DNA from: Parafilimonas terrae
GTDB taxonomy: Bacteria > Bacteroidota > Bacteroidia > Chitinophagales > Chitinophagaceae
Length of the DNA stretch: 64,000 bases
Assembly (NCBI RefSeq): GCF_900115755.1
Contig: NZ_FOXQ01000007.1
Location: forward strand, 124,001 to 188,000
Direction of reading: 5' to 3'
The notes beneath the pieces are model-generated. The model saw nothing but the letters and a program-made list of their open reading frames with translations, searched no databases and was not told where the DNA came from. Position numbers and translations under genes: made by a program. Shown here in pieces: positions 3,620 to 39,160 of this stretch (its first letter is position 1; each line of letters opens with the position of its first letter).

Positions 3620-6600
3620 TTACCTGCCAATGATTATTTGCACCTTGAATGTTTTCTTAGTATCCTCATTGTAAACTGTTAATGAATAATTACCACTGGT
3701 TAATGAGGCTCCTAACATAAACTCATAAGTAATATTACCTCCGGCGTGCTGCACTTTATAATTTCTTATTTGCCGGCCTTTCATATCAGATACCACAATC
3801 GCATAATTGCCTTTTATGAGGTTATTAAACTTAACCATCACTTTTTTATTAATTACAGGATTGGGATATACATATATACTTTCATTATTTTTTAAAGTAT
3901 CAATGCCTGCTGCCACAGGCGCTTTACTGTCTGTACGCTTAAATACTAACATGAACCTGTTGCGATAACTGTTAGTATCACTGTTTGGTGTAAAGCTATA
4001 CATCAATGTATCGCTCAGGTTTACGTCTATTTGTTTATTAAGATATTTATCAATCAGCCAGGCCTTTGCAGGCAAGCTGCCAACAGGGTTCTTGGTAAAT
4101 ATCTTGAGGGTATATGGCTGTTGCCTTAAATATAAATTATAGAATAGTGTATCGCTTTCTGTTGGCACAGGCCTGAATTCAATTGACATTGATTTTCCAT
4201 TTCTTGCCAGGGCAATATTCTCTCCAAAGTTCCAAAGCTTGTTAGCATTATGAGGATCATTGAAAGCAATATAGTCTTTACCAAATCCCGAGGCCACACC
4301 ATCCACCATTTCAAGCGCTCCTGTTGCACCTTGTGCAGTCATAAGATTGGTATAGATAACAGGAATTATTTTTCTTGCCTTTATTCCAAACACATCCAAC
4401 TGCGTTGATGTAACCTTGTTTGCCTGCTTAAATTCAAGCTGGGGATTACTGCCTGTGGCTTCAACCATAAATGCCTGGCCGCTTTGTACCAAAGGCAGAT
4501 CGTCTGAGCTATAACTTCCATTCGTATTATCACCATCGTCGGGCGCCCAAATTCCACCGCTATAAGTCACATAAGCACCGGCATTACTGCTGCCTGCCAG
4601 TTTAGGGTCCCATACTGAGAATTGTGTTTTATCAATACCCGTAGAATTACTATTGTTTAAAACACTCATTACGTCTATAGTAGCTGCAAAAGGATTACCA
4701 AATAATACCCATTTACCATTTACAGCAGCAGCATCCGTAATCTTAGATGTAATAGTATTCAAATCAATACCTCTTTCAAATAACTGTCCTTTGCTGCGCA
4801 ATACAGTATTATCTGTTGGCGCATTGTTGGCCAGGGCAAGGTTAACAATCCTGCTGCCGCGAACGAAAACACAATAACCTGTGTGATCTGTAACATTTGT
4901 TGTAAGTGTTGATGGTGTTGCAGTACTCCATGACTGGCTTGCAATATCCCAGGTTTTAAGTGAAGAATTGGAGGTAGTGTTATAATCATATCCTTTACTC
5001 ATGTTATTATCACCGGTTATATGGGTACCGAACCCGGGAGTATTATTTTGATTATGGTTATAATCAAGATCGGTATTCTGCTGGTTTTCCTGCCATGAAG
5101 AATGTAGTGTTTGCCCGCTGCTGGCAAATGGCAGGTTTAAAAACCGCCATGCCCTGCGGCCGGGGATAAACCGTTCTACCGTTACCGTGCCATCTATCTT
5201 GCCATATGACTCGCCCACCATGGCCGTTCCGGCAGCATCAGATTTTAGAGTCAGGTTATCATCAGCGGTTAAGTTTCCATTTGCTGTTAAAATTCCATAG
5301 CCGCCTGAATTGCCACCTGCAATATTTAAAGCGTTTGCAAGCGTTGCACTGCTTCCTGAATTAAGCGTAAATGTTTTAAGGTAATTACCAAAATCAGTTT
5401 GCGTAAAACTTAATGCTGGTGCCGCACCTCCAAGCGTTAAGCCAGACAATTGAGAACCTGTTAAACTGCCTGCACCAGATATAGCAGTATTAACTGTAAG
5501 CATTTGATCGTTTAAGGAAAGCGTATTCACAGAACCAATATTTAATGTACCCGGCACGGTTCTGTCACCGTCCATTACTATATTATTTGTATTTTGAATG
5601 GTAACGTTAAATGGCTGTCCTAACCCCAGTGTTGCACTATTTGCATTCCATTCAAGACCTGTTGTAAACGATGGTGTGACTGTGTTGTAAATTAATGTGG
5701 CAGCAGGGCCATACTTGGGTGAATTAACAGCAAGAGAACCCCCGGTATTTATTTGCAAATAATTATTAAAAGTTGAAATGTCACTACCAGGGTTTAGAGA
5801 TACATTAGTAATTGCATCATGGAAGTAGGCATTACCTGGGCCAAATACTGTTGCTGCAACATTTGAAAATGTAACGGTATTCCCTGTATTGTTTAATGTG
5901 CTACTATGGCTTAATGATATGCTTCCACCTTGTATGGTATAATTATTAGTTGCAGCAAGTGTAATCCCCGTACTGAGAGGATGATTATCGCCAACCACTA
6001 AGGCTCCAAAGGTTGTTGAACTGCCTGCTACCCCGGAGAAAGATTGCAGAACACCACTACTTCCGCTAAAAGTTGTTTGTTTAGAAGATCCTGAATAAGT
6101 GTAAGTACCATTATTTACAAAATTGTGATCGATAGTAACAGCACCATCCACGATTGTCATGTGTGAAGTATTATCAATCTGTAAATCATAAAATGCTTTA
6201 TTATTACCACCATCCAAATTTCCATTTCCTGTAAATTCTATAGTAGTATTTACATCTGGCTTCATAGTTCCGGAAGTAACAGTGAGGTTACGATCAATCT
6301 TGGTAATTGGCGCGGCAATAATTAAGTCAGCACCACCTGTTTGTTTTAAAGTTAAATCATAAAAAGTAGTATTCCCTTTAAGAGTCTGATTTGCAAAGCC
6401 ATCAAAAGTCACTTCACGATTACTGTGAATAAATAACCCATTGTTTGTCCAGCTGCCTAAAATATATATCTTACTTGTGTTCGGATTCAAGGAAGCTGTA
6501 GAATTTATTTGTAGATTTCCAGCAATGCATCTATTTGTTGCGCCAGTTGTATTGATTGTAACATTACCATTCTGTATAATTACATTTTGCGGAACGCCAT

Positions 6601-9600
6601 CTCCTGCACTGGTAGTTGTTGAACCGCCACTAAACCATTCCCTGCTTGTGGTATACGAGCCACTAACATTATATACAAGCGTTGAAGTATTTGTATAAAT
6701 TGGGTTATATGTTATTACTGCGCCGCTGTTAACCTGGAATATTCCGGTAATAGTTGGAGCAGTTGTTAACGTCAACTGTCCATTCATTGTAATATTATTG
6801 AATGTTGTTGCTGTACCATTTATTTTTCCTGTACCTATGAAAGTTACAACTCCTGTTCCCGATTGTACAAACGTGCCGGCATTATTTGTAAATGTACCAC
6901 CTGTATTTATATTAAGATTTCCGGTACCATTCATTGTAAGCGAAGCTCCATTTATAGTTAATGATTTAACCTGAGCTGTAGTACCTGGATAAATTACAGG
7001 ATCGTGTGGAGTGCCTGATGGAATAACTACATCTGTTGCAGAAGTAGGCACACCATTACACCAGTTCTGCTGCTCATTCCAGTTGTCTGTAATGCCTATC
7101 CAGGTACCTTTGGCAATAACATTCACAAGTAAAGTACTGACAGGACTAATTCCGCATGTATAAGCAGCAGTCGTAGCAGTTACCGAAACACTACCACCTG
7201 TTGTAATAGCTGAGGTGATTGTAATTTCATTTGTACCCTGTCCGGTAAATGTCCATCCTGAAGGAACTGACCAATTATAAGTTAGGCCAGGTTCATTTAC
7301 AACGGAATAAGTAAACCCTGATGTTTCAAAACAAATTTGTGAAGTGCCTGTGATAACACTTGGCTTCGCCGGAGTAGCACCTACTGTTAATAATACTTCT
7401 GTATAATCTGAAGAACAATCATTGGTAACAGAATACCTCAGAAATGCAGTGCCTGCCTGATGTGCCGTCACTTTACCTGTAGCATCTACAGTAAATACGC
7501 TATTATCACTACTGCTCCAGGAGCCTGTAGTATTATTCCCTTGAATAATATAATTGTAAGTTGGTCCACCAACACACAAATTAGTAGTCGGTGCAAAAAT
7601 ATTACCAGCTACCGCATCCGGTTTAATTGTTACAGTAATTCCGTCACTTGTTGCAGGTGTTCCGGTTGCACATGGTGTTATATCGGAAGAGAGGACACAA
7701 GTCACTACATCATTGTTCGTCCACGTGTTGCTGCTGTAAATATTACTGTTGGTTCCTACAGTAACGCCATTAACTTTCCATTGATAAATTGGCACAGTAC
7801 CGCCATTGGTTGGCGTAGCCGTAAAGGTTATTGTTTCTCCTGCACAAATTGCCGTCTTATTAGATGTAACAGAAACAGATACCGGTTTTAATTCATTTAC
7901 CGTAACCTGTATTCCATTACTTGTTGCAGGATTATCTGTAACACAAGGCCCTGCAGAATTAGAATTTACCTTCACAGTTACAATATCATTGTTTGCTAAG
8001 TTTGCAGGGCTAAAGGTTGAACTATTAGCGCCTGAAACAGGATTTCCATTTCTATACCATTGATAAGCCGGATTGGCACCTCCATTAACAGCAGTAGCAG
8101 TAAAGTTTATTGTTCCTCCTGCACAAATCGTTGTTTCATCAGATGTAATTGCAACAGATACCGGCAGATTTGGGTTTACAGTTACAGTAATTTCATTGCT
8201 TGTAGCAGGTGTGCCTGTTGCGCATTGTACCCCATTTGAAGTTAATATCACCCTTACCTTATCCCCGTTTGCTAATGTGCTGCTACTAAAAGATGAACCG
8301 GTTGCTCCCGCAACGTTAACCTCGTTTACCTGCCATTGATAAGTTGGAGATATGCCGCCATTGTTTGGCGTTGCTGAGAAGCTGATTGCATCTCCGGCGC
8401 ATACAATAGTAGATGATGTATTTGTGATGCTGACTGATACGGGTATTTGAGGATTTATCACTACATGTACTGGTTCGATATCATAACAACCTGATGAAGA
8501 TGTTCCCTTGATATAATATGTTCCTGAGGTATTTACTGCATCCGGATGTGGCAAAGCTGCCGTAGCCCCTGCATTAATCCAGTAAGTATATGTCAATCCT
8601 GATGTTGAACCGGTAGTTATTGCATTTGCAGTAAGATCAACTGTAGCTGGTGAGCATACAGATGAAGGATTTTGTATTGAAACCGTTGGTGCTGGATTAA
8701 CAGTTACAATTATTGTAACGGCTTTAGTTGGATCGCTACAACCATTTGCTGATGGTGTAATAGTATATTGTACTGTGGCTGGCGACCCACCCGTGTTGGT
8801 AAGTATAGCCGGTGCAGTATTAAGCGTATAAGCCGTTCCTTGGGCAACAGGTCCAGAACTCCCTGATCCTATGCTACCGTTAACTCCAACAGTATTAATA
8901 ACGCCTGATAAAACTTTCGTTGTCCACGTAAAAGTAGTTGGTGCATCTGTAATATTCCCTTTTAAAACTATATTGGCTGCACTACCGCTACATATTGGAG
9001 TTGTCGTCGGCTGTTGCATTGTTGGAAGAGGATATACTGTTAAATTTACCACGGTGGGAGTAAATACACAATTACCATTAGAAGCAGCAATGTTTACAAT
9101 TGGATATATGGTCGCATTAGAGTTATTAGTAACAGTAAAATTAGCATCTCCATATAAGGTGGATTGTGGGAACCAGCCGCCAGATGTTATTATATAACCA
9201 TACGATTGATTTTGAGGAAGTGGTATATTATCATGTGTATCAATTGCGGTTACATCTCCTCCGGTTGCGTTCCAACTGAAATTTAAATTATTAATCCCAA
9301 AAATACCAAGCAAAGATTTTGTTTTAACATTCATTTGAAAACTGCTTCCTGAACATAAAGGACCAGGCGGATCACTTAAAGGACTTGCATCCAATTCTAC
9401 TCCAAACCCGGGCACAACACTGGTGATTGGACTAGTCGCTGATGATCCACATGTATTATCAGTAACAATTAGACGATATAAATATGTCGGTGTGAAAAGG
9501 CCAATTGGGCCTGGTGAATAGGATGGTAAATTACCGACAGATGTCCAAGGCCCAGATGTAGAGGTATTATACCTTTCCCATTGATAGGAATAAGACCCAC

Positions 9601-12600
9601 TACCTCCCGTTACAGGAACTAGAACTGTTAACGGCGCGGGTGTTGCTCCTAAACAAATAGTTTGCCCATGAGTGATATCAAAGCCATCACTTTTAAATTC
9701 AGCATATAATATCACGTCTTTTGTTATTTCACTATAACACCCATTTGGAGAGGTTACTCTCAATGTGTAAGTAACCGTAATATTTGAAGTTGTAGTATTA
9801 ACCAAAGTCTGGTTGATATTATTTGTTCCACTCGTTGCAGGGCCGGCCTGAATTCCTGATGGATCGGTCCTTGACCAGGTCAGTACAGTTCCGCTTACAT
9901 TATTAGGATTAGTATAATTAATGGCAATTGGTGTATTATAACAAACTGCAGTTGGCGCACTTGTAACAGATACTGTCGGCTTTGGATTTACAAATACTGT
10001 AACCGAAAGCGGGTTTCCCGTACAACCGTATGCATCCGGAGTTACTGTATAATGTATAGTTTGCTGAATGTTCGTAATATTAGTTACAGTGCCGCTGATC
10101 ATATTACCGGTTATCGAATTGATGCCGGTAACATTGTTATTATCCCAAAACAGGGTAAACGTGGTACCGGTTGTATTATTTGGATTGCTGATCACAATAT
10201 CAGCAATAGGTGATCCTGAACAAACTGTTTGTGGATCGCCCGGAGTAAGTGAAACATCAGGTTTAGATTTGTAAGTTGCTGTTACCGGGGTTCTTACAGT
10301 AGAAATACAACCTGTTGTGATATCTCTGGCTTCGGCATAAAAAGTAGTAGTAGCCGAAATGGTTGGTGAATAAGAAGTTGTTCCTGTTGCAACCGGAATA
10401 CCACCCGTTGGGGTTGTGTACCAATCTATCGTAGCGCCGGCGCTTGCTGTGGCTGAAATGGTTACATCGCCACCGCAACTGGTACCTGGTGAAACTGAAA
10501 CTACTGTTGGCAATGGATTTACTGTGATGGTAATCACATTGGAATAGGCCTCGCTGCATATCCCGCTTGTTACTTTTGCCCTGAAATAAGTAGTTTGTGT
10601 AAGCGTACCAATTTGAGAAGCTGTTAAAGTATTTCCCACTGCCCCTACAATATCCTCAGCACTGGCGAAAGAGAGAGTTGTTGATTTTTGCCATTGAATA
10701 GTACCAACATTATCTGAAGAAAGTGTAATGTCATTTGCAGGTACTGAACCATAACAAACTTCAGGATTGGTCATTGTTGCGGTGCCGCTTACTGAAACCG
10801 GATTTACTGTAATGGTTATGCTTGCATCCGGTGAGTTATAGTTACAAGGGCTTCCATCTTCATATCTTCCATAATAAGTGGTGGTACTGCCCGGATTTAC
10901 CGTTATACCATTTCCAGCAGTTACGGCGGTTCCTGAACCATTAGGGCCAGTGTACCAATGTATCGTTTCACCCGTGCCACCACCACCACCAATTAGCGTT
11001 AAGACGGTACTCTCCCCAGCGCATATAACCTGTTTGGAAGCTGTCACCGAGATAGGTTTGGCTGATTTTTTATTCACAGTTAAAATGGCGTCCGGCGATG
11101 AAACAGCCTGTGCACAAACATTATCATCTCCATTTACAATAAGGTGATAGGTTCCTGCATCACCAACAGATGTAGGGCTTATGGTAAGGGTGCTGGAAGC
11201 AGCATCGCTAACAATTGAAATATCACCGCCATCTGACAGAGTGGTTCCATCGTGCTGCCAGAAGAATGATAATCCCGTGCCTGTGGCAGTAACACTAAAT
11301 ACAGCCGGGTCCCCTTTGCAGATAGTTTGTGCAAGTGGCGATATCTGGCTGATAGTTATTGGCTGGTTAACGATTAATTCTGCGTAATCTGATGTAGCAG
11401 TTCCACAGGGCGATAAACCACTCACAACCACAAAGTAATTACCTGCATCAGCCGCAACAGGATTAGGGATAGTGTAGGTAGCTGATGTGGCCCCGGTAAC
11501 AGGGTGCGCTATATCATTTTTATACCATTGATAAGTAAGGCCGCTTCCTGTGGCGACTACAGAAAAACTGATGGATGAATTGGTGGATCCGCAAACTTTT
11601 TGTGAAGGATCGGGCTGTGTTGTTATTACAACGGGTTCATTAACGGTTACGGTTGTTGAACCGGTTAAATCTGTGCTTGTTGAAGTACAGTTGGCATCCG
11701 ATAATAATATAAGTGTATAAGTTGTAGTTGCAGAAGGGCTTACAGTAAAATCAAAAGTTCCATTTTCGGTACCTGTTGCAGTTTGATTATCGCTTAATGT
11801 TAATGTCCATTCGCCTGCGGCGGTTACGGTTCCTGTAATATGGACAGTACCCGGATTACAGATGGCAGTATTATCACTGGTAATTTGCGCCGTTGGCCGG
11901 GCATTAACCGTTAATGTACTGCCTATGCTATATGTAATATTATAATTTCCCAAACCTGTGCCCACAGCCGCGCTTGCAACTATCGGGTAAACGCCGGGCG
12001 CAGCGCCTGCAACCGATCCGGTACTTGTAAGTGTTACGCTTGTTACAGCATCACTGTTCACCAAACCGGATGTAGTAAACTCTGTTCCCGCAAATGTGAA
12101 CACAGAACCGGCGCATTTTGTTTGGTTATTGGGTGTTATCGTTAAATTCGCTTTAGTTACGGTAAAAGCAGTTGCATTCCCCGCAGCTTGGGCAAAAGTG
12201 TAATTCCCATTATTAGCTGTTAGTCCGGAACCTGTAATTGGATAAGTACCTACAGGGCTTGTGATATCGGCAGTAGTGGCAAACATAAGGGTACCAGTAG
12301 TTGCATTACTTATATTTTCTCCGCTTATAAATCCGGTAACGGTTCCGCTTAACGGAGGATTAGGATCACCATAAACCCTGCTTACAGGAGTGGCTACATA
12401 AGTTAGTACTAATGAGTTGATAACGCCTGTATTATCATTAACATAAGTATAAGTATAGTTGTTTCCGCCGTTACCATCATTCACTGTACCCGACGGAGTT
12501 AATGTTTTACCTGTACCGGCATTTTGGTTAACATACGTTTCAATAAAATTGGCAACATCACCAGGCTGTAAAGCTCCGGCGGGGGTAAGCGTAGGTATGC

Positions 12601-14689
12601 CCGCAGCGCTGGTATTGCCATCATAAGGTTTGGTATTTGTTACCGCAGTTACCGTGATGGGCCTTTGATTGATAACACCTGTATTGGCCGAAACAAAAGT
12701 TATATCATAATTGCCTCCGGAATTTCCGTCATTGATACTTCCTCCAGGTGTAAGCGTTTTTCCGGAACCTGCATTTTTATTATCATAGGTTTCAGTAAAC
12801 GAAGCTATATCTCCTGAAAATATTGTACCTGATACTACCGGTGCGGCAGCGGCAGTTACATCTCCATCATACGTTTTTGTATTGGCGGTTGCTGTAACTG
12901 TTATAGCATGTTTTGTAATTACGCCTGTGGTATTATTTTGAAGGGTGACCGTATAATTATTGCCTCCATTACCGTCATTTACTGTTCCTGAAGGAATTAA
13001 TGTTTTTCCTGTTCCCGCATTTTTATTGTCATAAGTTTCCGTAAAGTTGAGTGCATCAGTGCCTATTAAAGTGCCTGCTGTTAAAGCAGGTATGGCGGCG
13101 GCGGCAGTAGTGCCATCATATCCTTTTGTGTTAGCAGATGCTGTTACAGTTATTGGGCGTGCAGTAACTGTACCTGTTACAGATTTATTAGTCATGGTAT
13201 AGTTAGCGGCTAATCCGCCATTGGTTCCATCAGCCAAAGAGTAAGAAATGGTCGTTGCTTTTCCAGTACCTACATTAGCATTGGCATAATTGGCAGCAGA
13301 AGGTGTAATTATTAAAGTTTCACTTCCTACTAACCCTGTAACAGTTCCCAACGTTACCGTACCTGGTGCGGCATTGCCGTCATACACTTTAGAAGCAACT
13401 GTGGAATTTGCTGTTAATGTCTTAGGGGTAATATTTGCTGTAACGGTTGCAGGATAAGATGAAACTGAATAGTTGCCTGCACCAGTTCCTCCCAGCGTAA
13501 CCCCGGAAAGGGTAACCGTTTTACCATTGCCCACATTCTTATCCGAAAATGTTCCCGCAACTGTATAAGTTACTATATCACTATTAATAATATCAGCAGA
13601 AGTAGCGCCTGTAAAGGTTGCTGTGGTATTGCCATTATAAGGCTTACTATTTGCCAAAATGCCTGTAATTGTTATAGGCTTCTTCGTAACAGTAAGTGTT
13701 ATACCGGAGGATGTGCTGGAGGCGTAGGGACCATTACCATTAAACACAGCAGTAACTGTATGTGTACCTGCTGCTAATGTACCAGGGTTATAAGTTAAAG
13801 ATGCATTGCCTCCGGAAACTGTAACCGGGCTTCCTGCATTATTACCATCAATTTTAAATTGAACAGTACCACCACTAGGGTTGGGGCTAACATTTGCATT
13901 AAACGTAATGGAAGATGTACCGTAAACGATAGATGAAGATGGAGTAATAGCAACTGTAGTTGATGTGGGAGTGTATAAAACTGTAACCACAACCCTGCCA
14001 TCTGCACCAGATGCAGATCCTGATCCGTTACTCGCTCTACCTCCTCCACCGCCACCGGGTTGGCTACCAACCGTTGCAGCTATAGTTGGTGATCTACTGG
14101 CACCATTACCTCCATTTCCGGTTCCTGAGCCACCTATTCCTCCTATTGCATTAGATGGTGCATCTGCACCATTATTACCATTCGCATTATTAAAAGCTGA
14201 ACCTCCCCCGCCTCCGCCAGAATAATTGCTAGATCCTGTTGCACCCCCTCCATTTCCCCCTTTATAGCCTATACCTGTCACAACCGCCCCTCCGGCACCA
14301 GGAGTTGTCTTCGCTTGAGCTCCTTTGCCACCTCCTGCCTCAACAAGAGTAGTTGTATTTAATCTAAATCTTGAATTCCCTCCATCTTCGGCTGCATCGC
14401 CACCGCTACCTACAGTCAGATTATATATTGTGTTTGGTACAACATTTAAAGTAACAGATGAATATGCACCGCCACCTCCACCTGCAGAAGCACCCCCACC
14501 ACCGCCACCCCAAGCCTCAATTTTTATTGAAGTAACACCTGCCGGCACAATATAATTGTATGCGCCCGGCGTGCTAAACGTAGTTGTTTGCCCCCACCCC
14601 ACTTCACTCTTCATCATAAAACAACACAATGCCAACAGGGAAAACAATACTGGTTTCCTTAAATGTTTAGATAGGGTAAAGATTTTCAT
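3620..14689 (-). CDS. Giant T9SS-secreted surface protein (YDG, MBG, Ig-like repeats)
   Basis: 3,689 residues. A signal peptide (1-34) is followed by a very glycine-rich domain (about 35-245), an Ig-like Big_3-type module (about 248-340), five YDG repeats of about 83 residues (about 345-765), MBG-type modules starting at SRVYGDPNPPLSG (about 770-935), a long array of PKD/Ig-like modules up to about 2500, and a section starting with GTWIGITDNWNEQQNW (about 2525) rich in Asn/Thr/Gly beta-helix-like strands. The last 85 residues (YVYPNP at about 3606, ending in KVQIIIGR) match the T9SS type A sorting domain, so the protein should cross the outer membrane by T9SS and be anchored to or released from the surface. 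Probable role: adhesion or matrix; no catalytic domain is recognised. Frame is intact throughout. Confidence 0.92.
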   Translation of the reverse strand: MKIFTLSKHLRKPVLFSLLALCCFMMKSEVGWGQTTTFSTPGAYNYIVPAGVTSIKIEAWGGGGGGASAGGGGGAYSSVTLNVVPNTIYNLTVGSGGDAAEDGGNSRFRLNTTTLVEAGGGKGAQAKTTPGAGGAVVTGIGYKGGNGGGATGSSNYSGGGGGGSAFNNANGNNGADAPSNAIGGIGGSGTGNGGNGASRSPTIAATVGSQPGGGGGGRASNGSGSASGADGRVVVTVLYTPTSTTVAITPSSSIVYGTSSITFNANVSPNPSGGTVQFKIDGNNAGSPVTVSGGNASLTYNPGTLAAGTHTVTAVFNGNGPYASSTSSGITLTVTKKPITITGILANSKPYNGNTTATFTGATSADIINSDIVTYTVAGTFSDKNVGNGKTVTLSGVTLGGTGAGNYSVSSYPATVTANITPKTLTANSTVASKVYDGNAAPGTVTLGTVTGLVGSETLIITPSAANYANANVGTGKATTISYSLADGTNGGLAANYTMTNKSVTGTVTARPITVTASANTKGYDGTTAAAAIPALTAGTLIGTDALNFTETYDNKNAGTGKTLIPSGTVNDGNGGNNYTVTLQNNTTGVITKHAITVTATANTKTYDGDVTAAAAPVVSGTIFSGDIASFTETYDNKNAGSGKTLTPGGSINDGNSGGNYDITFVSANTGVINQRPITVTAVTNTKPYDGNTSAAGIPTLTPAGALQPGDVANFIETYVNQNAGTGKTLTPSGTVNDGNGGNNYTYTYVNDNTGVINSLVLTYVATPVSRVYGDPNPPLSGTVTGFISGENISNATTGTLMFATTADITSPVGTYPITGSGLTANNGNYTFAQAAGNATAFTVTKANLTITPNNQTKCAGSVFTFAGTEFTTSGLVNSDAVTSVTLTSTGSVAGAAPGVYPIVASAAVGTGLGNYNITYSIGSTLTVNARPTAQITSDNTAICNPGTVHITGTVTAAGEWTLTLSDNQTATGTENGTFDFTVSPSATTTYTLILLSDANCTSTSTDLTGSTTVTVNEPVVITTQPDPSQKVCGSTNSSISFSVVATGSGLTYQWYKNDIAHPVTGATSATYTIPNPVAADAGNYFVVVSGLSPCGTATSDYAELIVNQPITISQISPLAQTICKGDPAVFSVTATGTGLSFFWQHDGTTLSDGGDISIVSDAASSTLTISPTSVGDAGTYHLIVNGDDNVCAQAVSSPDAILTVNKKSAKPISVTASKQVICAGESTVLTLIGGGGGTGETIHWYTGPNGSGTAVTAGNGITVNPGSTTTYYGRYEDGSPCNYNSPDASITITVNPVSVSGTATMTNPEVCYGSVPANDITLSSDNVGTIQWQKSTTLSFASAEDIVGAVGNTLTASQIGTLTQTTYFRAKVTSGICSEAYSNVITITVNPLPTVVSVSPGTSCGGDVTISATASAGATIDWYTTPTGGIPVATGTTSYSPTISATTTFYAEARDITTGCISTVRTPVTATYKSKPDVSLTPGDPQTVCSGSPIADIVISNPNNTTGTTFTLFWDNNNVTGINSITGNMISGTVTNITNIQQTIHYTVTPDAYGCTGNPLSVTVFVNPKPTVSVTSAPTAVCYNTPIAINYTNPNNVSGTVLTWSRTDPSGIQAGPATSGTNNINQTLVNTTTSNITVTYTLRVTSPNGCYSEITKDVILYAEFKSDGFDITHGQTICLGATPAPLTVLVPVTGGSGSYSYQWERYNTSTSGPWTSVGNLPSYSPGPIGLFTPTYLYRLIVTDNTCGSSATSPITSVVPGFGVELDASPLSDPPGPLCSGSSFQMNVKTKSLLGIFGINNLNFSWNATGGDVTAIDTHDNIPLPQNQSYGYIITSGGWFPQSTLYGDANFTVTNNSNATIYPIVNIAASNGNCVFTPTVVNLTVYPLPTMQQPTTTPICSGSAANIVLKGNITDAPTTFTWTTKVLSGVINTVGVNGSIGSGSSGPVAQGTAYTLNTAPAILTNTGGSPATVQYTITPSANGCSDPTKAVTIIVTVNPAPTVSIQNPSSVCSPATVDLTANAITTGSTSGLTYTYWINAGATAALPHPDAVNTSGTYYIKGTSSSGCYDIEPVHVVINPQIPVSVSITNTSSTIVCAGDAISFSATPNNGGISPTYQWQVNEVNVAGATGSSFSSSTLANGDKVRVILTSNGVQCATGTPATSNEITVTVNPNLPVSVAITSDETTICAGGTINFTATAVNGGANPAYQWYRNGNPVSGANSSTFSPANLANNDIVTVKVNSNSAGPCVTDNPATSNGIQVTVNELKPVSVSVTSNKTAICAGETITFTATPTNGGTVPIYQWKVNGVTVGTNSNIYSSNTWTNNDVVTCVLSSDITPCATGTPATSDGITVTIKPDAVAGNIFAPTTNLCVGGPTYNYIIQGNNTTGSWSSSDNSVFTVDATGKVTAHQAGTAFLRYSVTNDCSSDYTEVLLTVGATPAKPSVITGTSQICFETSGFTYSVVNEPGLTYNWSVPSGWTFTGQGTNEITITSAITTGGSVSVTATTAAYTCGISPVSTLLVNVIAKGTWIGITDNWNEQQNWCNGVPTSATDVVIPSGTPHDPVIYPGTTAQVKSLTINGASLTMNGTGNLNINTGGTFTNNAGTFVQSGTGVVTFIGTGKINGTATTFNNITMNGQLTLTTAPTITGIFQVNSGAVITYNPIYTNTSTLVYNVSGSYTTSREWFSGGSTTTSAGDGVPQNVIIQNGNVTINTTGATNRCIAGNLQINSTASLNPNTSKIYILGSWTNNGLFIHSNREVTFDGFANQTLKGNTTFYDLTLKQTGGADLIIAAPITKIDRNLTVTSGTMKPDVNTTIEFTGNGNLDGGNNKAFYDLQIDNTSHMTIVDGAVTIDHNFVNNGTYTYSGSSKQTTFSGSSGVLQSFSGVAGSSTTFGALVVGDNHPLSTGITLAATNNYTIQGGSISLSHSSTLNNTGNTVTFSNVAATVFGPGNAYFHDAITNVSLNPGSDISTFNNYLQINTGGSLAVNSPKYGPAATLIYNTVTPSFTTGLEWNANSATLGLGQPFNVTIQNTNNIVMDGDRTVPGTLNIGSVNTLSLNDQMLTVNTAISGAGSLTGSQLSGLTLGGAAPALSFTQTDFGNYLKTFTLNSGSSATLANALNIAGGNSGGYGILTANGNLTADDNLTLKSDAAGTAMVGESYGKIDGTVTVERFIPGRRAWRFLNLPFASSGQTLHSSWQENQQNTDLDYNHNQNNTPGFGTHITGDNNMSKGYDYNTTSNSSLKTWDIASQSWSTATPSTLTTNVTDHTGYCVFVRGSRIVNLALANNAPTDNTVLRSKGQLFERGIDLNTITSKITDAAAVNGKWVLFGNPFAATIDVMSVLNNSNSTGIDKTQFSVWDPKLAGSSNAGAYVTYSGGIWAPDDGDNTNGSYSSDDLPLVQSGQAFMVEATGSNPQLEFKQANKVTSTQLDVFGIKARKIIPVIYTNLMTAQGATGALEMVDGVASGFGKDYIAFNDPHNANKLWNFGENIALARNGKSMSIEFRPVPTESDTLFYNLYLRQQPYTLKIFTKNPVGSLPAKAWLIDKYLNKQIDVNLSDTLMYSFTPNSDTNSYRNRFMLVFKRTDSKAPVAAGIDTLKNNESIYVYPNPVINKKVMVKFNNLIKGNYAIVVSDMKGRQIRNYKVQHAGGNITYEFMLGASLTSGNYSLTVYNEDTKKTFKVQIIIGR
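12430..13680 (-). repeat. Five tandem YDG-domain repeats inside the giant gene
   Basis: The YDG cores occur at about 13640 (KPYNGN), 13385 (KVYDGN), 13120 (KGYDGT), 12870 (KTYDGD) and 12622 (KPYDGN), a period of about 250 bases. The last three units also share the phrase NAGTGKTL or a close variant followed by NDGN and GNNYT or GNYD, so they look like relatively recent internal duplications, while the first two have diverged more. Confidence 0.8.
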
Positions 14690-15521: not shown

Positions 15522-16130
15522 TTATTTACGGATCGCTGTAATGTCAAGCGTAATATCCACATCCGGTAAAATATACAGATCGCCTTCGGGATCGCTGTAG
15601 CTATCCATGCCCCAATCGAGCCTGTTTATTTTAAATTCGGCCTGCGTAATCACCCTGTTGTTTTCAACCAAAACCTTTGCAGGAAAACGAATGCGGTTGG
15701 TTTCTCCGAGCATGGTAAAATCGCCGGTGATCAATTTATTGGCGCCTTCAATGGCATTGCCCTCTTCTCCTTTATAATCCGTGATCTCGAGTATTTTAAA
15801 CCCGGCATTGGGATAAAGCGCCACGTTAAAAAAATCTTCACTTTTTAAATGATTTAATAGCTGCGGCTTTGTTGTATCCGGCAAATCATCGTTGGTAATG
15901 CTGGTAATGGGAATGATGAAATTGCCGCCGTTTATATTGCCTTGTCCATCTGTTTTTACAGTGCCGGATACATCGAATGTTCCGGTATGAAAATGGTCGG
16001 GTGCAGCGCCTTTCCATTTCACCACAGAAGCCTTTTCATTAACAGAAAAACTGTTTACATTTTTATCATCTTTTGAGCAGGCTGCGGCTAATGCCATCGC
16101 AGCAATAATTATGTATTTCCTGGTTTTCAT
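15522..16130 (-). CDS. YceI-family lipoprotein
   Basis: 202 residues. The N-terminus MKTRKYIIIAAMALAAACSK is a lipoprotein signal with the lipobox cysteine at residue 19. The rest is a YceI lipocalin-like barrel: KWKGAAPDHFHTGTFDVSG, the LKSEDFFNVALYPNAGFKI core and the C-terminal VDITLDITA strand. YceI proteins bind isoprenoid or amphiphilic ligands in the periplasm and are often linked to stress or respiratory quinone chemistry. The gene begins 18 bases after the cupin gene, so the two are one operon; a shared 15-base motif upstream suggests control by the neighbouring LytTR-type system. Confidence 0.9.
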   Translation of the reverse strand: MKTRKYIIIAAMALAAACSKDDKNVNSFSVNEKASVVKWKGAAPDHFHTGTFDVSGTVKTDGQGNINGGNFIIPITSITNDDLPDTTKPQLLNHLKSEDFFNVALYPNAGFKILEITDYKGEEGNAIEGANKLITGDFTMLGETNRIRFPAKVLVENNRVITQAEFKINRLDWGMDSYSDPEGDLYILPDVDITLDITAIRK

Positions 16131-16148: not shown

Positions 16149-16622
16149 TTAGAGAAATTTTATTTCATAGGTATTGGTAAGCACCTGCAGCATGTATTGC
16201 ATCTGGTGCTGTGAAGGAACTTGCTGGCTGGTGCTTATTAAAGGTTCACCCTTGCATGGCTTACTGAATTCAATAAAATAATGCCACAGCCTACCAGGCG
16301 TAATGAGGTTAATGAACCTCGCCGTATCTGAAATTATTTTAAAATGATGTGGTGTATTCCTCGGCGCAAACAGGGCTTCTCCTGCATTAATCCAGGTGGT
16401 TATATTTCCAACAGTAATTTTTAACAGGCCTTCCAGCACATAAAATGTTTCATCTTCCTGCGTATGCAGGTGCGGCGGCGGCTCAGCGCCTTTTGGCAAT
16501 ACAAAATCCAGCAGGGCAAGTTCACCATTGCTTTGTTCAGGCGAAATAAGTGTTTTGAAATAGCCGCCCTGGTAACTGCGAAAGCCATTGATGTTTACAT
16601 CGGTCAATTCAATTTGTTCCAT
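16149..16622 (-). CDS. Cupin-domain protein
   Basis: 157 residues forming one cupin beta-barrel. The metal-binding first motif is seen as PPPHLHTQEDETFYVLEG (two His, Glu) and the second as NTPHHFKI, so a metal site is plausible. The family ranges from quercetin dioxygenase-like enzymes to sugar isomerases and sensors; nothing decides the substrate here. Gene order with the YceI lipoprotein (18 bases apart) points to a common stress or small-molecule function. About 85-100 bases upstream lies the motif also present before the LytS/LytTR operon. Confidence 0.85.
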   Translation of the reverse strand: MEQIELTDVNINGFRSYQGGYFKTLISPEQSNGELALLDFVLPKGAEPPPHLHTQEDETFYVLEGLLKITVGNITTWINAGEALFAPRNTPHHFKIISDTARFINLITPGRLWHYFIEFSKPCKGEPLISTSQQVPSQHQMQYMLQVLTNTYEIKFL

Positions 16623-16707
16623 TGTTTAATTGCGTTTTAAATTTTTTTGTGGCGCAATATTGAAACGATTTGAAAGGATGTTCAAAAGAAACAGACGGAG
16701 GTTGCCT

Positions 16708-16722
16708 TTTATCGACAAATGA
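16708..16722 (-). promoter_or_regulatory. Putative response-regulator site upstream of cupin/YceI operon
   Basis: The 15 bases TTTATCGACAAATGA here (plus strand) are identical to 18703-18717 upstream of the LytS-LytTR operon. The site lies 86-100 bases before the cupin start codon. The fuller copy at the other locus forms a near-palindrome around TCGA. Confidence 0.5.
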
Positions 16723-16816
16723 TATTTTATGAAGCTGAATGAAATAAAAACAGCCTGATGATTGCGGCAAAGAATTGTTCGGGAAAGAATAAAATAAATA
16801 AAGCCTGTTGACTTCA

Positions 16817-17554
16817 CTATATAATATTGGCTGCGCCCGGATTAAACTTTTGAAGGCTTGCCGTTTTATAATTACGCCCTATCGGGATTTTATTGCCGGC
16901 TATAACAACATAGTTGGCATGATAACTTTCAATCTTGTTCAACGGCACAATATAAGAACGGTGAATGCGCATGAACTCGCCGATAGGCAAAAGGTTTTCT
17001 GCAACGCTTATCTTTTGCTTGGTAGTAAAAGTTCTTGTTTTGGTTACAACTTTTATATAGTCTTTTATACTTTCAATCCACCATATTTCAGCAGTATCCA
17101 CTTTTACCAGTTGCCTTTCAATACGCAGGTATAAATATTGATTGTTTTTATTGGCTTCCGCTATTTCTTTTACCGGTTGCACCTGCGCTGATTCTTTTTT
17201 TATTAGCGGCATTACTTTATCCACAGCACGCAAAAAACGGTCAAAGGCAATAGGCTTTAACAGGTAGTCAACCGCATTCAGGTCAAAGCCCTCCACTGCA
17301 TAATCCTGGTAAGCCGTAGTAAAAACAATCATGGGTGGATTTTTAAGGCTGCGTGCCAGGTCTGTGCCGGAAAGCCCCGGCATTTTCACATCAAGAAACA
17401 GTAAATCTATTTTGTTATGCTGTATAATTTGAAAAGCCTTTATTGCATTGTGGCAGGTATCCACAATTTCAATTTCGGGAATATTAGCCGAATACCTTTT
17501 AATGATGTCGATGGCATGCGGTTCATCATCCACAATAAGCGTTCTTATCGTCAT
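16817..17554 (-). CDS. LytTR-family response regulator
   Basis: 245 residues: an N-terminal receiver domain with acidic pocket D9-D10 and phospho-acceptor Asp55 (LLFLDVKMPG), then a LytTR DNA-binding domain from about residue 140 to the end (IWWIESIKDYIKV, FMRIHRSYIVPLNKI). It is a transcription factor acting as the output of the kinase encoded immediately upstream; the two genes overlap by four bases (ATGA), implying translational coupling. LytTR regulators bind short direct or inverted repeats, and a motif duplicated upstream of this operon and of the cupin gene is the obvious candidate target. Confidence 0.95.
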   Translation of the reverse strand: MTIRTLIVDDEPHAIDIIKRYSANIPEIEIVDTCHNAIKAFQIIQHNKIDLLFLDVKMPGLSGTDLARSLKNPPMIVFTTAYQDYAVEGFDLNAVDYLLKPIAFDRFLRAVDKVMPLIKKESAQVQPVKEIAEANKNNQYLYLRIERQLVKVDTAEIWWIESIKDYIKVVTKTRTFTTKQKISVAENLLPIGEFMRIHRSYIVPLNKIESYHANYVVIAGNKIPIGRNYKTASLQKFNPGAANII

Positions 17555-18645
17555 ACAACTGGTTTTGAGCCTTCGTATAATTCAAGCTTTAATTCTGTAA
17601 TAAACAATTCTTCTTCATTATATACATTAAATGTATGCCTTGCCGGGTATAACAACGCAAGCCTCTTCTCCACATTTGACAAACCTATTTTACTAAAGTG
17701 CCTGCGGCTGTCAGCCACATCGCAATCGGGTTTGCTGTTGCTTACTTTAAAAATAAGTTGCCCGCCGTTAACCAAAACATCAATATTTATCCATGGCACA
17801 CCAATGGTTTCGCCGGCGCCATGTTTAAAAGCATTTTCCACCAGCGGCAGCATCAGCAGCGGCGCAATCTGCTGGCCGTTTATATCACCTTTTATATTGA
17901 AGTTTAATTCCAGCCTTTCTTCATAACGCAATTGTTCCAGCTTAATATAATCGTGCAATATATCAAGGTCTTTTTTTAGCGGTACTTTTTCAGCATTACA
18001 TTCATACAACATATAACGAAGGATATTGGAGAGCTCCAGAATAATCTCCGGTGTCCGCGGCGAATTATCCAATGCAAAAGCATAGAGATTATTAAGTGAA
18101 TTGAAAAGAAAATGCGGGTGAAGCTGGCTTTTTAAAAAATTCAATTCCGCCTGTGTGGCGGCTTGTCTTCTTTCATACCATAATGAAATAAATTTAAGTG
18201 TAACGCCTATCCAAACAACTACATTGCTTCTTTCAAGGGCATTGGCAAAATCCAAAGGTTCCAGCAATTGCCGCCACCAGCTTTCATCCATTTGCGGCCA
18301 GTTGAGCTTTACATTTCTTTTTGTGTACCAGTGCAGGATATAAGGGTTGGATATAAAAATTTCAAATAGCCTGTACAGGCAGGCCATGCATACCATAACC
18401 ACCAGCACGGCTATTACCGCCTGCACATATTTTCCGCGGGAGAAAAAGCGGGGAATTATCCAGCCGGATATAATATAAAAGTAAGTTATATGCACCGGCA
18501 GGAGCATGAGGATAATAGTTATGCCAAGGCTATAACTGTTATAAGCAGTTCCATATATCAGCGTTAACAGCAGGAAGGCAAAAACCCAAAACAATCCATG
18601 CCTGAATGCGGGATATGCCAATGCCGGTTGCCTGTTTGCAGCCAT
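17551..18645 (-). CDS. LytS-like sensor histidine kinase (His_kinase family)
   Basis: About 364 residues from the ATG at 18645 (a GTG lies two codons earlier at 18651). Four hydrophobic segments occupy roughly residues 17-100, with a further one near 145-158, and no extracytoplasmic sensor domain is evident. The catalytic part starts with LNFLKSQLHPHFLFNSLNNL, the typical His_kinase box of the LytS/YehU family, followed by the ATPase segment PLVENAFKHGAG. It phosphorylates the LytTR regulator encoded next, with which it overlaps by four bases. The stimulus is unknown. Confidence 0.93.
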   Translation of the reverse strand: MAANRQPALAYPAFRHGLFWVFAFLLLTLIYGTAYNSYSLGITIILMLLPVHITYFYIISGWIIPRFFSRGKYVQAVIAVLVVMVCMACLYRLFEIFISNPYILHWYTKRNVKLNWPQMDESWWRQLLEPLDFANALERSNVVVWIGVTLKFISLWYERRQAATQAELNFLKSQLHPHFLFNSLNNLYAFALDNSPRTPEIILELSNILRYMLYECNAEKVPLKKDLDILHDYIKLEQLRYEERLELNFNIKGDINGQQIAPLLMLPLVENAFKHGAGETIGVPWINIDVLVNGGQLIFKVSNSKPDCDVADSRRHFSKIGLSNVEKRLALLYPARHTFNVYNEEELFITELKLELYEGSKPVV

Positions 18646-18702
18646 ATTCACAAATCTAATTTAAAGCGTTACTATTTTAAGATTGATAGATGAACAACGG
18701 CA

Positions 18703-18717
18703 TTTATCGACAAATGA
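18703..18717 (-). promoter_or_regulatory. Putative operator upstream of LytS/LytTR operon
   Basis: On the minus strand CATTTGTCGATAAATG (18718-18703 region) is a 16-base near-palindrome centred on TCGA with 14 symmetrical positions. It sits about 55-70 bases before the kinase start, and 15 of its bases recur identically at 16708-16722 before the cupin gene. This fits autoregulation plus control of one neighbouring operon. Confidence 0.5.
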
Positions 18718-18759: not shown

Positions 18760-20025
18760 TCAGGAAGAAACCGGCTTCCTTTTTATATCGAAATATACAA
18801 AGCCATTTGCTGCACGATAATTAATAAGCAGGCTATGTGTATCTGCAATTTTCTTCACAATTGCAAGGCCGAGCCCGTTGGAATTTGCATCTGTCTTGTC
18901 CTGCGTCATAAAACGCCTGAACAGTTTCTCCTGTGGTATGGCTTCATGCAAACTTGTATTGCTGATGCAGTAACTGTTTGCCGTTATGGCTATTTCAATA
19001 CGGCCGCCGGTATAATTATATTTTACGGCATTGCCCAGCAGGTTAGATACAAGCGAGTCAGCAAGCAGCGGGTGCAGTTGCATTACAAACTCGCCTTCAA
19101 AATTTGTGGTTACGGTTAACTGTTTGTCATTTATTAATTCTGCAAGCAGGCCGAGGTATTTTTTGGTTACTTCATTTAAGCTTAATGCGGCTGTTGTTTT
19201 ATATTGATAGTTTTCAATCCTGGCCAGCAGCAACAGCCCCTGGTTTAATTTCGATAATCTTGTTAAAGATGTAGTGGCTTCAAGAATTAACCGGATATCC
19301 TCCTGCGATAAATTTTCATTTTGCAACAATAATTCGAGTTTGCTTTGCGCAACGCTCAACGGTGTCTGCATTTCGTGCGCTGCATTTTCCGTAAACTCTT
19401 TCATGTTGATGAAATCATTATAAATCTTTTCCGTCATGGCATTCAATGCCGCATTCAGTTCATTGAATTCCTTGGTGTAGGTTTTTTCAAAATGTGTTTC
19501 CTGGATGCGCTGCAAATCTGTGCGCCTTATTGTATGGAGTGAACGGTAAAAAGGCTTCCATAATTTTTTACTGATGATCCAGTTGAAGAATATTGTTGCA
19601 ATAAAAAGCCCGGCAAAAACCAGCAATATAATTTTTGTTGTATTAGCTATTAAAGCCGCTTTTTGTTCCTGTGATTTTTTAATGATAACCTGGTAAGAAA
19701 TGCCATATATGGAAACCACCTGCGACAACTGCCGGTAAGGCACTGCGGCAAGGTTACTTTTTACATCGGTGATGGCGGCATAATTATTTGGCGGTGTGTC
19801 AACAGGGTAGATGGATATATCCGGTGTTCTTAAAATAAAAGTAACGCCGGCGGCAACTTCGGTTTGCAAATATTGAATCCATGCAGCTTCTTCCTGTAAT
19901 AATTCCTTATCGCTTTTATTACTTAATTCCTTGCTGAACTGGTTAAACAGGTAAAAGCCTGCCAGCAGGAGCAGCATGGTCATTGCGCTTAGAAAATATA
20001 ATGTTGTTTTTGTAAGAAGCCTCAT
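18760..20025 (-). CDS. Sensor histidine kinase (HisKA/HATPase, OmpR-partner type)
   Basis: 421 residues. Two membrane segments (about 7-28 and 131-152) bracket a periplasmic region of about 100 residues. The cytoplasmic part has the H-box ENAAHEMQTPLS with phospho-acceptor His217, an N-box NLLGNAVKYN and a G-box NGLGLAIVKKIAD, so it is a complete kinase. It starts 6 bases after the response regulator gene, which is the first gene of the operon. The architecture resembles two-component systems for envelope or metal stress, but the periplasmic domain has no feature that identifies the signal. Confidence 0.93.
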   Translation of the reverse strand: MRLLTKTTLYFLSAMTMLLLLAGFYLFNQFSKELSNKSDKELLQEEAAWIQYLQTEVAAGVTFILRTPDISIYPVDTPPNNYAAITDVKSNLAAVPYRQLSQVVSIYGISYQVIIKKSQEQKAALIANTTKIILLVFAGLFIATIFFNWIISKKLWKPFYRSLHTIRRTDLQRIQETHFEKTYTKEFNELNAALNAMTEKIYNDFINMKEFTENAAHEMQTPLSVAQSKLELLLQNENLSQEDIRLILEATTSLTRLSKLNQGLLLLARIENYQYKTTAALSLNEVTKKYLGLLAELINDKQLTVTTNFEGEFVMQLHPLLADSLVSNLLGNAVKYNYTGGRIEIAITANSYCISNTSLHEAIPQEKLFRRFMTQDKTDANSNGLGLAIVKKIADTHSLLINYRAANGFVYFDIKRKPVSS

Positions 20026-20031
20026 GCTGTT

Positions 20032-20709
20032 TTAATTATCTGTAAACCTGTATCCGGATCCATACACTGTTTTTATATAATCCCCGCTGCCTGCATCGAC
20101 CAGTTTCTTGCGCAGGTTCTTGATATGCGTGTATATAAAATCATAGTTGTTTAAATATTCATATTCATCGCCCCATACATGCGATGCTATCGCATGCTTG
20201 GTGAGCACCCGCCGCTGGTTCACGATAAAATATTCCAGCAAATGATATTCCTTTTCTGTAAGCTCTACGGTTTTATCATTCACCGTAATTCTTTGCGCGT
20301 CGGGATCCAGTTTAATTTCATTAAAAACAATGGTTTTATTGCCGTCAAACGACCTGCGCCGTAATACTGCGTTAATACGCGCATTTAATTCTGATAAATG
20401 AAATGGCTTGGTGATGTAATCATCCGATCCTGATTCGAGCCCTGTTAATTTGTCTTCCAGCGAATTTTTTGCAGAGATAATAATGATGCCAGCTTTCGAT
20501 TCCATATGCTTTAATTCCTTTATGATATCGAGGCCGCTGCCGTAAGGCAGGCCAATATCCACAACAATGCAATCATAATTAAACTGCTGAATTTTTTCTT
20601 TTGCATTTAAAAAATTATCTGCGGTTTCACATATATAACCCTGGTATTCCAGGTATTGCTGAATGGATTGCTGTAAAGCCTTTTCATCTTCTATTATCAG
20701 GATTTTCAT
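20032..20709 (-). CDS. OmpR/PhoB-family response regulator
   Basis: 225 residues: receiver domain with acidic residues at 7-8 and phospho-acceptor Asp51 (IVVDIGLPYGSG), conserved Lys in YITKPF, then a winged-helix DNA-binding domain (about 125-225) ending in VYGSGYRFTDN. It is the first gene of a two-gene operon with the membrane kinase. It is distinct from, and oriented the same way as, the LytTR system next to it, so two two-component systems lie back to back. No binding-site repeat was recognised upstream. Confidence 0.95.
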   Translation of the reverse strand: MKILIIEDEKALQQSIQQYLEYQGYICETADNFLNAKEKIQQFNYDCIVVDIGLPYGSGLDIIKELKHMESKAGIIIISAKNSLEDKLTGLESGSDDYITKPFHLSELNARINAVLRRRSFDGNKTIVFNEIKLDPDAQRITVNDKTVELTEKEYHLLEYFIVNQRRVLTKHAIASHVWGDEYEYLNNYDFIYTHIKNLRKKLVDAGSGDYIKTVYGSGYRFTDN

Positions 20710-37797: not shown

Positions 37798-39120
37798 ATG
37801 GTTTCAAAACTTAGCTCTGAAGAAGTGCTTAGCTTTCTCATTATTGTAAGTATTATACTCATTACAGCCCGCGTTTTAGGAGAAGTATTCCGTAAGTTTA
37901 AACAGCCTGCAGTAATAGGCGAAATACTTGCCGGTATCCTCTTAGGGCCATCCTTGCTTGGCACCGTGGCGCCTGATGTTTTCAATGATCTGTTTACCAG
38001 CAGCAATGGAATTCCTTACAAAGCTTTTGACGGCCTTGCCCAGATAGGTATTATTCTTCTCATGTTTATTGCAGGTTTTGAGGTTGACCTGAAGCAGATA
38101 CGTTTGCAGGGAAAAAAGGCCGCTTCCATAAGCCTTATGGGTTTGATATTCCCTTTTGCGCTTGGATTTCTGGCGGTGTGGTTTTTTTACGAAAGGATTT
38201 TTTCGGATGCGGCCCACACCAATCTTGTTATACCCGCCATGTTTTTTGGCACCGCATTATCTATAACCGCCTTATCTGTAATTGCCAAAATATTGCTTGA
38301 CCTCAATATTCTTCGTTCCAAAATAGGCAACCTTGTACTTACCGCCGCAATGATAGATGACTTTCTCGGATGGATATTATTTTCCATTATTATCCAGATG
38401 ATGGGTAAAACAGGAGAGGGATCATTTGCGTCGGTGGCAATGGTTCTTGGTTTTACCGTTTTTATTTTAACTATCGGCAGATGGCTTGTTGATAAAGTAT
38501 TAATGATTGCAGATAAATTTTTATCTACCGGCGGCGTAATGACCTTGTCCGTAAGCCTTTGTCTTTTAAGCGCCGTTTTAACGGAATATCTTGGTGTTCG
38601 TGGCATATTTGGCGCCTTCCTGATGGGCGTGGCTATTGGCGATTCCAAATATTTTCCTGAAAGGTTACAAAACATTCTTCACCAGTTTGTAGTAAATATT
38701 ATTGCACCTTTATTCTTTGCATCAATAGGGCTGCGGGTAAATTTTGTTACCAATTTCAATTTTGAAGTTGTTGCCATCATCCTGTTCATTGCATGCTTCG
38801 CAAAAATTATCGGCGCAGGCATTGGCAGCCGCATGAGCGGCATGACGAAAAACGAATCTTATGCGGTTGCATTTGGAATGAATGCCCGCGGTTCGCAGGA
38901 AATTGTACTCGGCGCTCTGGCGCTGCAGGCGAAAATAATTGATGAGCCCATTTTTGTAGGCCTGGTGGTTATGACCGTAGTTACCATTTTGATAGCAGGC
39001 CCGCTAATGAAATATTATATAGGTAAGGAGCATAAATTAACCCATAATAAAGTAGCAGGCGGGCAGCCACCAGGTATTGAAATTATGAGCCAGCCGGAAA
39101 AGACTATTGCCGGCATTTAA
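37798..39120 (+). CDS. Kef/CPA2-type cation:proton antiporter, copy 1
   Basis: 440 residues with about 12 membrane helices of the Na_H_Exchanger (CPA2) family. Landmarks are KQPAVIGEILAGILLGPSLLG, GIILLMFIAGFEVDLKQIR, the ion-site segment TAAMIDDFLGW with paired Asp, and FFASIGLRVNF. No C-terminal TrkA-N or USP domain is present, only a short soluble tail. It exchanges a monovalent cation for protons in the inner membrane. It is followed after 40 bases by a close paralogue. Confidence 0.92.
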   Translation: MVSKLSSEEVLSFLIIVSIILITARVLGEVFRKFKQPAVIGEILAGILLGPSLLGTVAPDVFNDLFTSSNGIPYKAFDGLAQIGIILLMFIAGFEVDLKQIRLQGKKAASISLMGLIFPFALGFLAVWFFYERIFSDAAHTNLVIPAMFFGTALSITALSVIAKILLDLNILRSKIGNLVLTAAMIDDFLGWILFSIIIQMMGKTGEGSFASVAMVLGFTVFILTIGRWLVDKVLMIADKFLSTGGVMTLSVSLCLLSAVLTEYLGVRGIFGAFLMGVAIGDSKYFPERLQNILHQFVVNIIAPLFFASIGLRVNFVTNFNFEVVAIILFIACFAKIIGAGIGSRMSGMTKNESYAVAFGMNARGSQEIVLGALALQAKIIDEPIFVGLVVMTVVTILIAGPLMKYYIGKEHKLTHNKVAGGQPPGIEIMSQPEKTIAGI

Positions 39121-39160
39121 TAAATATTAAGCGTTTTATCACCATCAAACTCCGGCAACT

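Follow-up and report, generated by a model that had tools for sequence, protein, structure and literature searches.

The identical 15-base motif found upstream of the LytS–LytTR and the cupin–YceI operons probably marks two operators of the LytTR regulator encoded between its two copies, which would control both its own operon and the cupin–YceI operon. This double control, already proposed in the original prediction, is well supported as a prediction by candidate sites in both kinds of promoters of relatives, by gene order and co-occurrence, and by the known layout of LytTR operators. Positions below refer to the window, that is, the whole 64-kb stretch of DNA that was analyzed.

The first gene of the regulator operon encodes a LytS-type sensor histidine kinase (17551..18645, minus strand; PF06580, Pfam His_kinase 3e-24, residues 166–245; 85.5 bits vs. 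a cut-off of 25.2), and it adjoins the gene of a response regulator with receiver and LytTR DNA-binding domains (16817..17554, minus strand; Pfam Response_reg 4.7e-20 and LytTR 4.6e-16, both above cut-off). Since the two genes share 4 bases, the pair is not the orphan sensor system that had been supposed. LytS has 15 orthologous matches in the same family with 54–61% identity, and the LytTR regulator is 59–70% identical in the nine relatives aligned, with D55 invariant. A PDB sequence search with the regulator returned, among the matches listed, ones that cover the receiver half alone. The second operon encodes a Cupin_2 protein (16149..16622, minus strand; Pfam 7.2e-16) and, starting 18 bases after the cupin gene, a YceI-family protein from the ORF list (15522..16130, minus strand; Pfam YceI 2.2e-22), whose N-terminus looks lipoprotein-like by eye; the two proteins may have a role at the cell envelope or surface, and their original designation as stress proteins is a guess. 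Directly upstream of LytS is another pair, consisting of an OmpR-type regulator (20709–20032, minus strand) and a PorY-family kinase (20025–18760, minus strand; NF052314, 378.5 bits, cut-off 350). Elsewhere in the window, at 3620–14689, there is a 3689-aa ORF that, as judged by eye, contains numerous Ig/MBG-like repeats and has a C-terminus resembling a sorting signal.

The 15-mer TTTATCGACAAATGA is present exactly at 16708–16722 and 18703–18717 on the plus strand. As the LytS and cupin genes are both on the minus strand, the motif has the identical orientation relative to the two genes, just as originally described. It precedes the LytS ATG (18645) by 57 bases and the cupin ATG (16622) by 85 bases; the former would be 51 bases if the in-frame GTG at 18651, which overlaps the predicted −7 element by one base, were the start. 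The genome-wide motif scan that had been asked for beforehand found TTTRTCGAYAAATG with zero mismatch at two places in the 4,985,410-base genome, namely the two window copies, and with one mismatch at 7 forward and 9 reverse places vs. 6 and 8 for the reversed control, which is no excess. An exact 15-mer repeat is by itself unremarkable in 64 kb, since 3.1 same-strand exact repeat pairs of this length are expected and 13 maximal repeats of at least 15 were seen, but one shared by the LytS and cupin promoters, of 195 and 115 bp, is rare (3.4e-5 expected). Other exact repeats of the window, 17–18 bp long and about 1.36 kb apart, lie at 38245–40250, as if from tandem paralogous genes.

A larger conserved element, a tandem repeat with a period of 20 bp, has the 15-mer as its upstream half. 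In both promoters a second half-site was found 20 bp downstream of the first on the gene strand, giving GTCGAT-N14-ATCTAT in the LytS promoter and GTCGAT-N14-GTCTGT in the cupin promoter. In detail, the candidate operator of the LytS–LytTR operon (18686..18715, minus strand) comprises the half-sites TTTGTCGAT (18714–18706) and TTCATCTAT (18694–18686), and that of the cupin–YceI operon (16691..16720, minus strand) comprises TTTGTCGAT (16719–16711) and TCCGTCTGT (16699–16691), the period being 20 in each. Each candidate operator would thus consist of two 9-bp direct half-sites whose starts are 20 bp apart, and would end just upstream of a Bacteroidota-type −33/−7 promoter, a type given as TTTG/TANNTTTG in the excerpts of PMC6847099 used here. 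The predicted LytS promoter has the −7 element TAGATTTG (18651..18658, minus strand), recognized by its sequence against this consensus, and the LytS operator ends 27 bases before it. With the −7 element at this place, transcription of LytS would begin only a few bases from the ATG. The predicted cupin promoter (16654..16719, minus strand; 26.9 bits with a 66-column profile) combines the operator, a −33 TTTG (16686–16683) only 4 bases beyond the operator end, and the −7 element CAATATTG (16662–16655). A scan for sigma-70 promoters and terminators found nothing above shuffles in this region, which is Bacteroidota-type. The −7 elements, the PorY-family kinase, and the named search hits indicate an origin in Bacteroidota, probably Chitinophagaceae.

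In the own genome, the pattern GTCGAYN14RTCKRY matched twice, at the two window sites, vs. five times for its reversed control. This form was picked after seeing the two sites and some relatives, and the unbiased tests are therefore the profile and EM tests made without the window. A looser pattern was also tried and rejected, as its 16 own-genome matches vs. 26 for the reversed control are background beyond the two window sites.

The computational evidence for conservation of the repeat comes from 17 LytS promoters of same-family relatives (16 genomes, G029 having two loci), obtained from searches of 147 and 394 family genomes. EM run without the window and with no motif supplied, starting from words spread over all promoters, produced aTTCaTCGACaAAA.C.g.ttTtTGTCTAC, mostly 70–110 bp ahead of the start. 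In leave-one-out scoring, 15 of the 17 promoters, spanning 7 genera, reached at least 21.5 bits; these 15 are not independent, as L154 is close to L156 and L147 to L148. The promoters L103 and L157, whose LytS proteins have 46–48% identity, scored −0.2 and −4.6 bits and were without the period-20 form, and a near match with period 21 was seen in them by eye. Column information was 1–2 bits in the half-sites and mostly below 0.5 bit in the flanks. Over the window and the same-family relatives, the half-sites read about TTyrTCGAy and TTtGTCTAy, each 9 bp, with an 11-bp spacer, and the identity between the two is only partial, ranging from 1 to 16 of 16 sites per column with 1 of 16 at the G/T centre. 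A simple pattern scan of six genomes found the pattern with one mismatch to be rarer than the reversed control, while its zero-mismatch matches were confined to the promoters of LytS in G003, G008, and G028.

Both window sites were then scored with profiles made without the window, against 2000 dinucleotide shuffles of each window promoter. The held-out LytS site scored 24.3 bits, ranked first of about 128,000 window positions and was equaled by 0 of 2000 shuffles, and the cupin site, scored with the LytS-promoter profile, reached 17.7 bits, rank 3 and 1 of 2000 shuffles. Rank 2, above the cupin site, was a match of 18.9 bits at 25819 on the plus strand, antisense within a protease gene. Further, a sequence-only profile of the sites of 15 relatives (L103 and L157 left out) was searched in 17 genomes. 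Among the 150 of 1877 first-look candidates that were scored in the own genome, the LytS promoter came first (E 0.12) and the cupin site third of 4 matches (E 0.83), the fourth having an E of 1.4; the second (C18, E 0.18) sits in coding sequence and was rejected.

In relatives, many cupin/YceI promoters carry the repeat as well. When EM was run on 11 of these, with the window excluded and the L147 cupin promoter (about 5 kb from LytTR) dropped beforehand, it aligned the period-20 repeat, TTTG, and AATCTTGC. Eight of the 11 were in register (44.5–59.6 bits), and L101 (28.7), L099 (21.7), and L152 (18.7) were not or weakly so. The 66-column profile was made from the eight in-register promoters, these three having been dropped after seeing the EM alignment; on the window, its next best place after the cupin promoter scored 7.0 bits. 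With the half-site columns alone the window cupin promoter ranked fourth (10.8 bits; best 12.8), so that the −33/−7 region accounts for a large share of the 26.9 bits, and columns 31–65, the −33/−7 part, alone ranked it first on the minus strand. What is seen here is thus conservation of the promoter more than of the half-sites. When 10 linked cupin/YceI promoters were scored with the LytS profile, six reached the 1% level of shuffles (L100, L150, L151, L152, L154, and L156, of which L152 was out of register), and L099, L102, L153, and L155 did not; the L101 cupin promoter was left out of this count, since what matched there was the divergent LytS site in reverse complement. Consistently, period 20 gave the best mean score of 25 spacings tried on the 10 linked promoters with the LytS profile, 8.8 bits vs. 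6.0 for the next. In L150, L154, and L156 the best match was one period upstream of the EM-aligned pair, so that the cupin gene is preceded by three half-sites in 20-bp phase (9231–9280, 8768–8817, and 5007–5056, respectively).

For unlinked, second-copy, or LytS-less cupin/YceI promoters, 2 of 15 (L188 and L204) were clearly above shuffles and the other 13 were not, so that signs of control in trans are limited to some genomes at best. These two are the promoter of the unlinked cupin operon of G177, at 13.5 bits (0 of 1000 shuffles), and the YceI promoter of G226 (L204), at 8.2 bits (3 of 1000 shuffles), which was judged by eye not to be canonical.

Gene linkage and co-occurrence point in the same direction. 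The order LytS–LytTR–cupin–YceI is found in eight loci of relatives (L099 and L150–L156); cupin–YceI is divergent in L102, cupin is divergent in L101, and YceI follows LytTR in L100. With homologue limits of E up to 1e-85 for LytS, 1e-30 for cupin, and 1e-35 for YceI, LytS was found in 17 and cupin in 19 of 394 genomes, with both in 16, and YceI was found in 24, of which 16 also have LytS. The exception in co-occurrence, G301, is an 88% complete genome. The hypergeometric p values, in which relatedness is ignored, were 1.4e-24 for LytS/cupin and 1.0e-21 for LytS/YceI. None of LytS, cupin, and YceI was found at these E limits in the seven other genomes of the window's genus. In more distant LytS promoters, from Sphingobacteriales and Cytophagales, period 21 with a 12-bp spacer was the best in only 5 of 11 (L047, L048, L051, L053, and L078) and not in the other 6. 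In two paralogous loci of Parapedobacter indicus (L048 and L050), LytS and a divergent YceI each carry GTCGAC-N15-GTCGAC, with 0 of 1000 shuffles at each of the four promoters; the eight promoters of this Parapedobacter and Sphingobacteriales shuffle test were picked after seeing the sites and the spacing results.

In the mechanism that we propose, the membrane kinase would sense a signal and phosphorylate the LytTR regulator, and the phosphorylated regulator would bind the half-site pair as a tandem dimer. Given the placement of the operators upstream of the promoter, activation rather than repression is most likely, and the regulator would most likely activate its own kinase–regulator operon in a positive feedback, as well as the cupin–YceI operon.

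Such a system is a familiar kind of genetic switch, of which this is a well-supported new example. According to the excerpts of PMC6193735 used here, LytTR sites are direct repeats just upstream of −35, usually separated by 12 bp and less often by 11 or 13 bp, positive autoregulation occurs, and some operon repeats diverge from the LytTR consensus. The candidate operators described here are likewise direct repeats, with an 11-bp spacer that falls in this range, and are immediately upstream of predicted promoters. In the same excerpts, HdrRM/BrsRM of Streptococcus mutans also have a direct-repeat pair just upstream of the promoter and the regulator operon itself as a target; unlike those systems, in which a LytTR protein is joined with a membrane inhibitor, a receiver-LytTR response regulator is joined here with a histidine kinase, and the half-site cores are TCGA/TCTA with a Bacteroidota-type −33/−7 promoter. 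The pair is thus a LytTR two-component system, with a receiver-LytTR regulator and an adjacent PF06580 histidine kinase, and not a LytTR Regulatory System (LRS), which has a membrane inhibitor in place of the kinase. The published broad LytTR consensus has a GTT core, whereas the core here is TCGA or TCTA. BtsS–BtsR similarly pairs a receiver-LytTR regulator with a PF06580 kinase, BtsS, and BtsR is the best NCBIfam model of the present regulator (NF008677), at 135.1 bits below its cut-off of 246; the targets of BtsS–BtsR and the BtsR operator differ from those here. LytS–LytR shares the LytTR DNA-binding domain and the PF06580 kinase, but the regulator here scores below the cut-off of the LytR model (NF010684; 114.1 vs. 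375 bits), and Pfam reports no sensor domain besides PF06580 in this kinase. Literature searches found nothing on LytTR together with YceI, on LytTR in Chitinophaga, or joining YceI, cupin, and response regulator, nor on LytTR direct repeats in connection with YpdB or with BtsR binding.

Other readings of the two sites were also weighed. That only the LytS site works, in autoregulation, and the cupin–YceI operon is no target in this strain would agree with the weaker scores that the cupin site received, both as a whole and for the half-sites by themselves (E 0.83 among the 150 of 1877 candidates scored; rank 4), and with the several cupin promoters of relatives that fail the shuffle tests. We consider it unlikely in view of the exact 15-mer common to both promoters (3.4e-5 expected), the match in register between the window cupin promoter and those of relatives, and the gene co-occurrence and gene order. 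The operator might instead be a palindrome around TCGA, bound by a dimeric regulator, with the downstream half-site being part of something else. The near-palindrome originally reported does exist at the LytS copy (18703–18717), but its outer arm is broken at the cupin copy (CATTTGTCGATAAAAG). Nor is it conserved over its full length: of its seven base pairs, the four inner ones are preserved in 13–16 of 16 LytS sites, no worse than the identity between half-sites, whereas the remaining three (the outer pair and two in the middle) are preserved in 1, 6, and 9 of 16, so that a full palindromic operator was rejected. A palindrome is retained as a rival because of its inner pairs, yet the downstream half-site is strongly conserved at a fixed distance (six columns of 1.4–2.0 bits), which favours the tandem reading and leaves the palindrome quite improbable.

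The sites could also belong to another regulator, for example the OmpR-type response regulator encoded together with the neighbouring PorY-like kinase (18760–20709), LytS–LytTR being then only a target. This pair lies directly upstream of LytS, and OmpR-family sites are direct repeats too. However, in those relatives of the same family that have retained the repeat, tblastn detected no OmpR homologue next to LytS, the receiver-level match in L157 being onto the LytTR protein only. The period of 20–21 and the position fit the LytTR layout in the excerpts of PMC6193735, and ownership by a regulator other than LytTR appears very improbable. Control by the LytTR protein itself remains the preferred reading.

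Concerning specificity, the own genome has 17 LytTR domains/genes. The 6.0–6.5 kb around each of the 16 other own-genome LytTR loci held no match above 9.4 bits, and the four matches above 8 bits were all in coding sequence. In other genomes, 4 of 24 LytS paralog promoters carry similar tandem repeats at 11.4–22.3 bits (L030 22.3, L031 18.8, L025 15.9, and L040 11.4), and other LytTR proteins may therefore read similar sites; judged from the sequences, the half-site code appears to reach beyond one orthologous group. Outside the training sites, the 17 loci gave 22 matches of at least 15 bits, 16 of which are intergenic and at most 260 bp before a same-strand start, a position that 6.2% of random positions have. 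If the four matches that are training sites read on the opposite strand are set aside, 15 of 18 are intergenic before a start.

In relatives, further candidate sites precede lipoprotein and cupin genes. Downstream of 12 selected sites an ATG reading frame starts at 69–121 bp, and the products comprise seven with a lipobox-like N-terminus (by eye), three cupins, one esterase, and one long exported-looking protein. Pfam, run on 10 of the 12, reported above cut-off a carboxypeptidase regulatory-like domain, an esterase, a cupin, and a DUF3108-like protein; one ZU5 match was below cut-off, and five products were without match. Tentatively, a Bacteroidota LytTR group with TCGA-core tandem operators might run a compact envelope regulon made up of itself, cupins, YceI, and mostly unannotated surface lipoproteins, a reading that we consider somewhat less likely than not; if true, the LytS kinase would be an entry point to an undescribed cell-surface response. 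Apart from this, a kinase–regulator pair of a very large family is tied to a concrete candidate operator and target operon, the YceI and cupin proteins gain a predicted regulatory context, and the operator profile could allow the target genes of related systems to be read off their sequences. As a minor observation, the unlinked or LytS-less cupin promoters L182, L185, L187, and L190 carry, by eye, a GTCGG..TACAA element by the −33 position, about 100 bp before the cupin start and without an upstream half-site, which is perhaps another form of LytTR operator.
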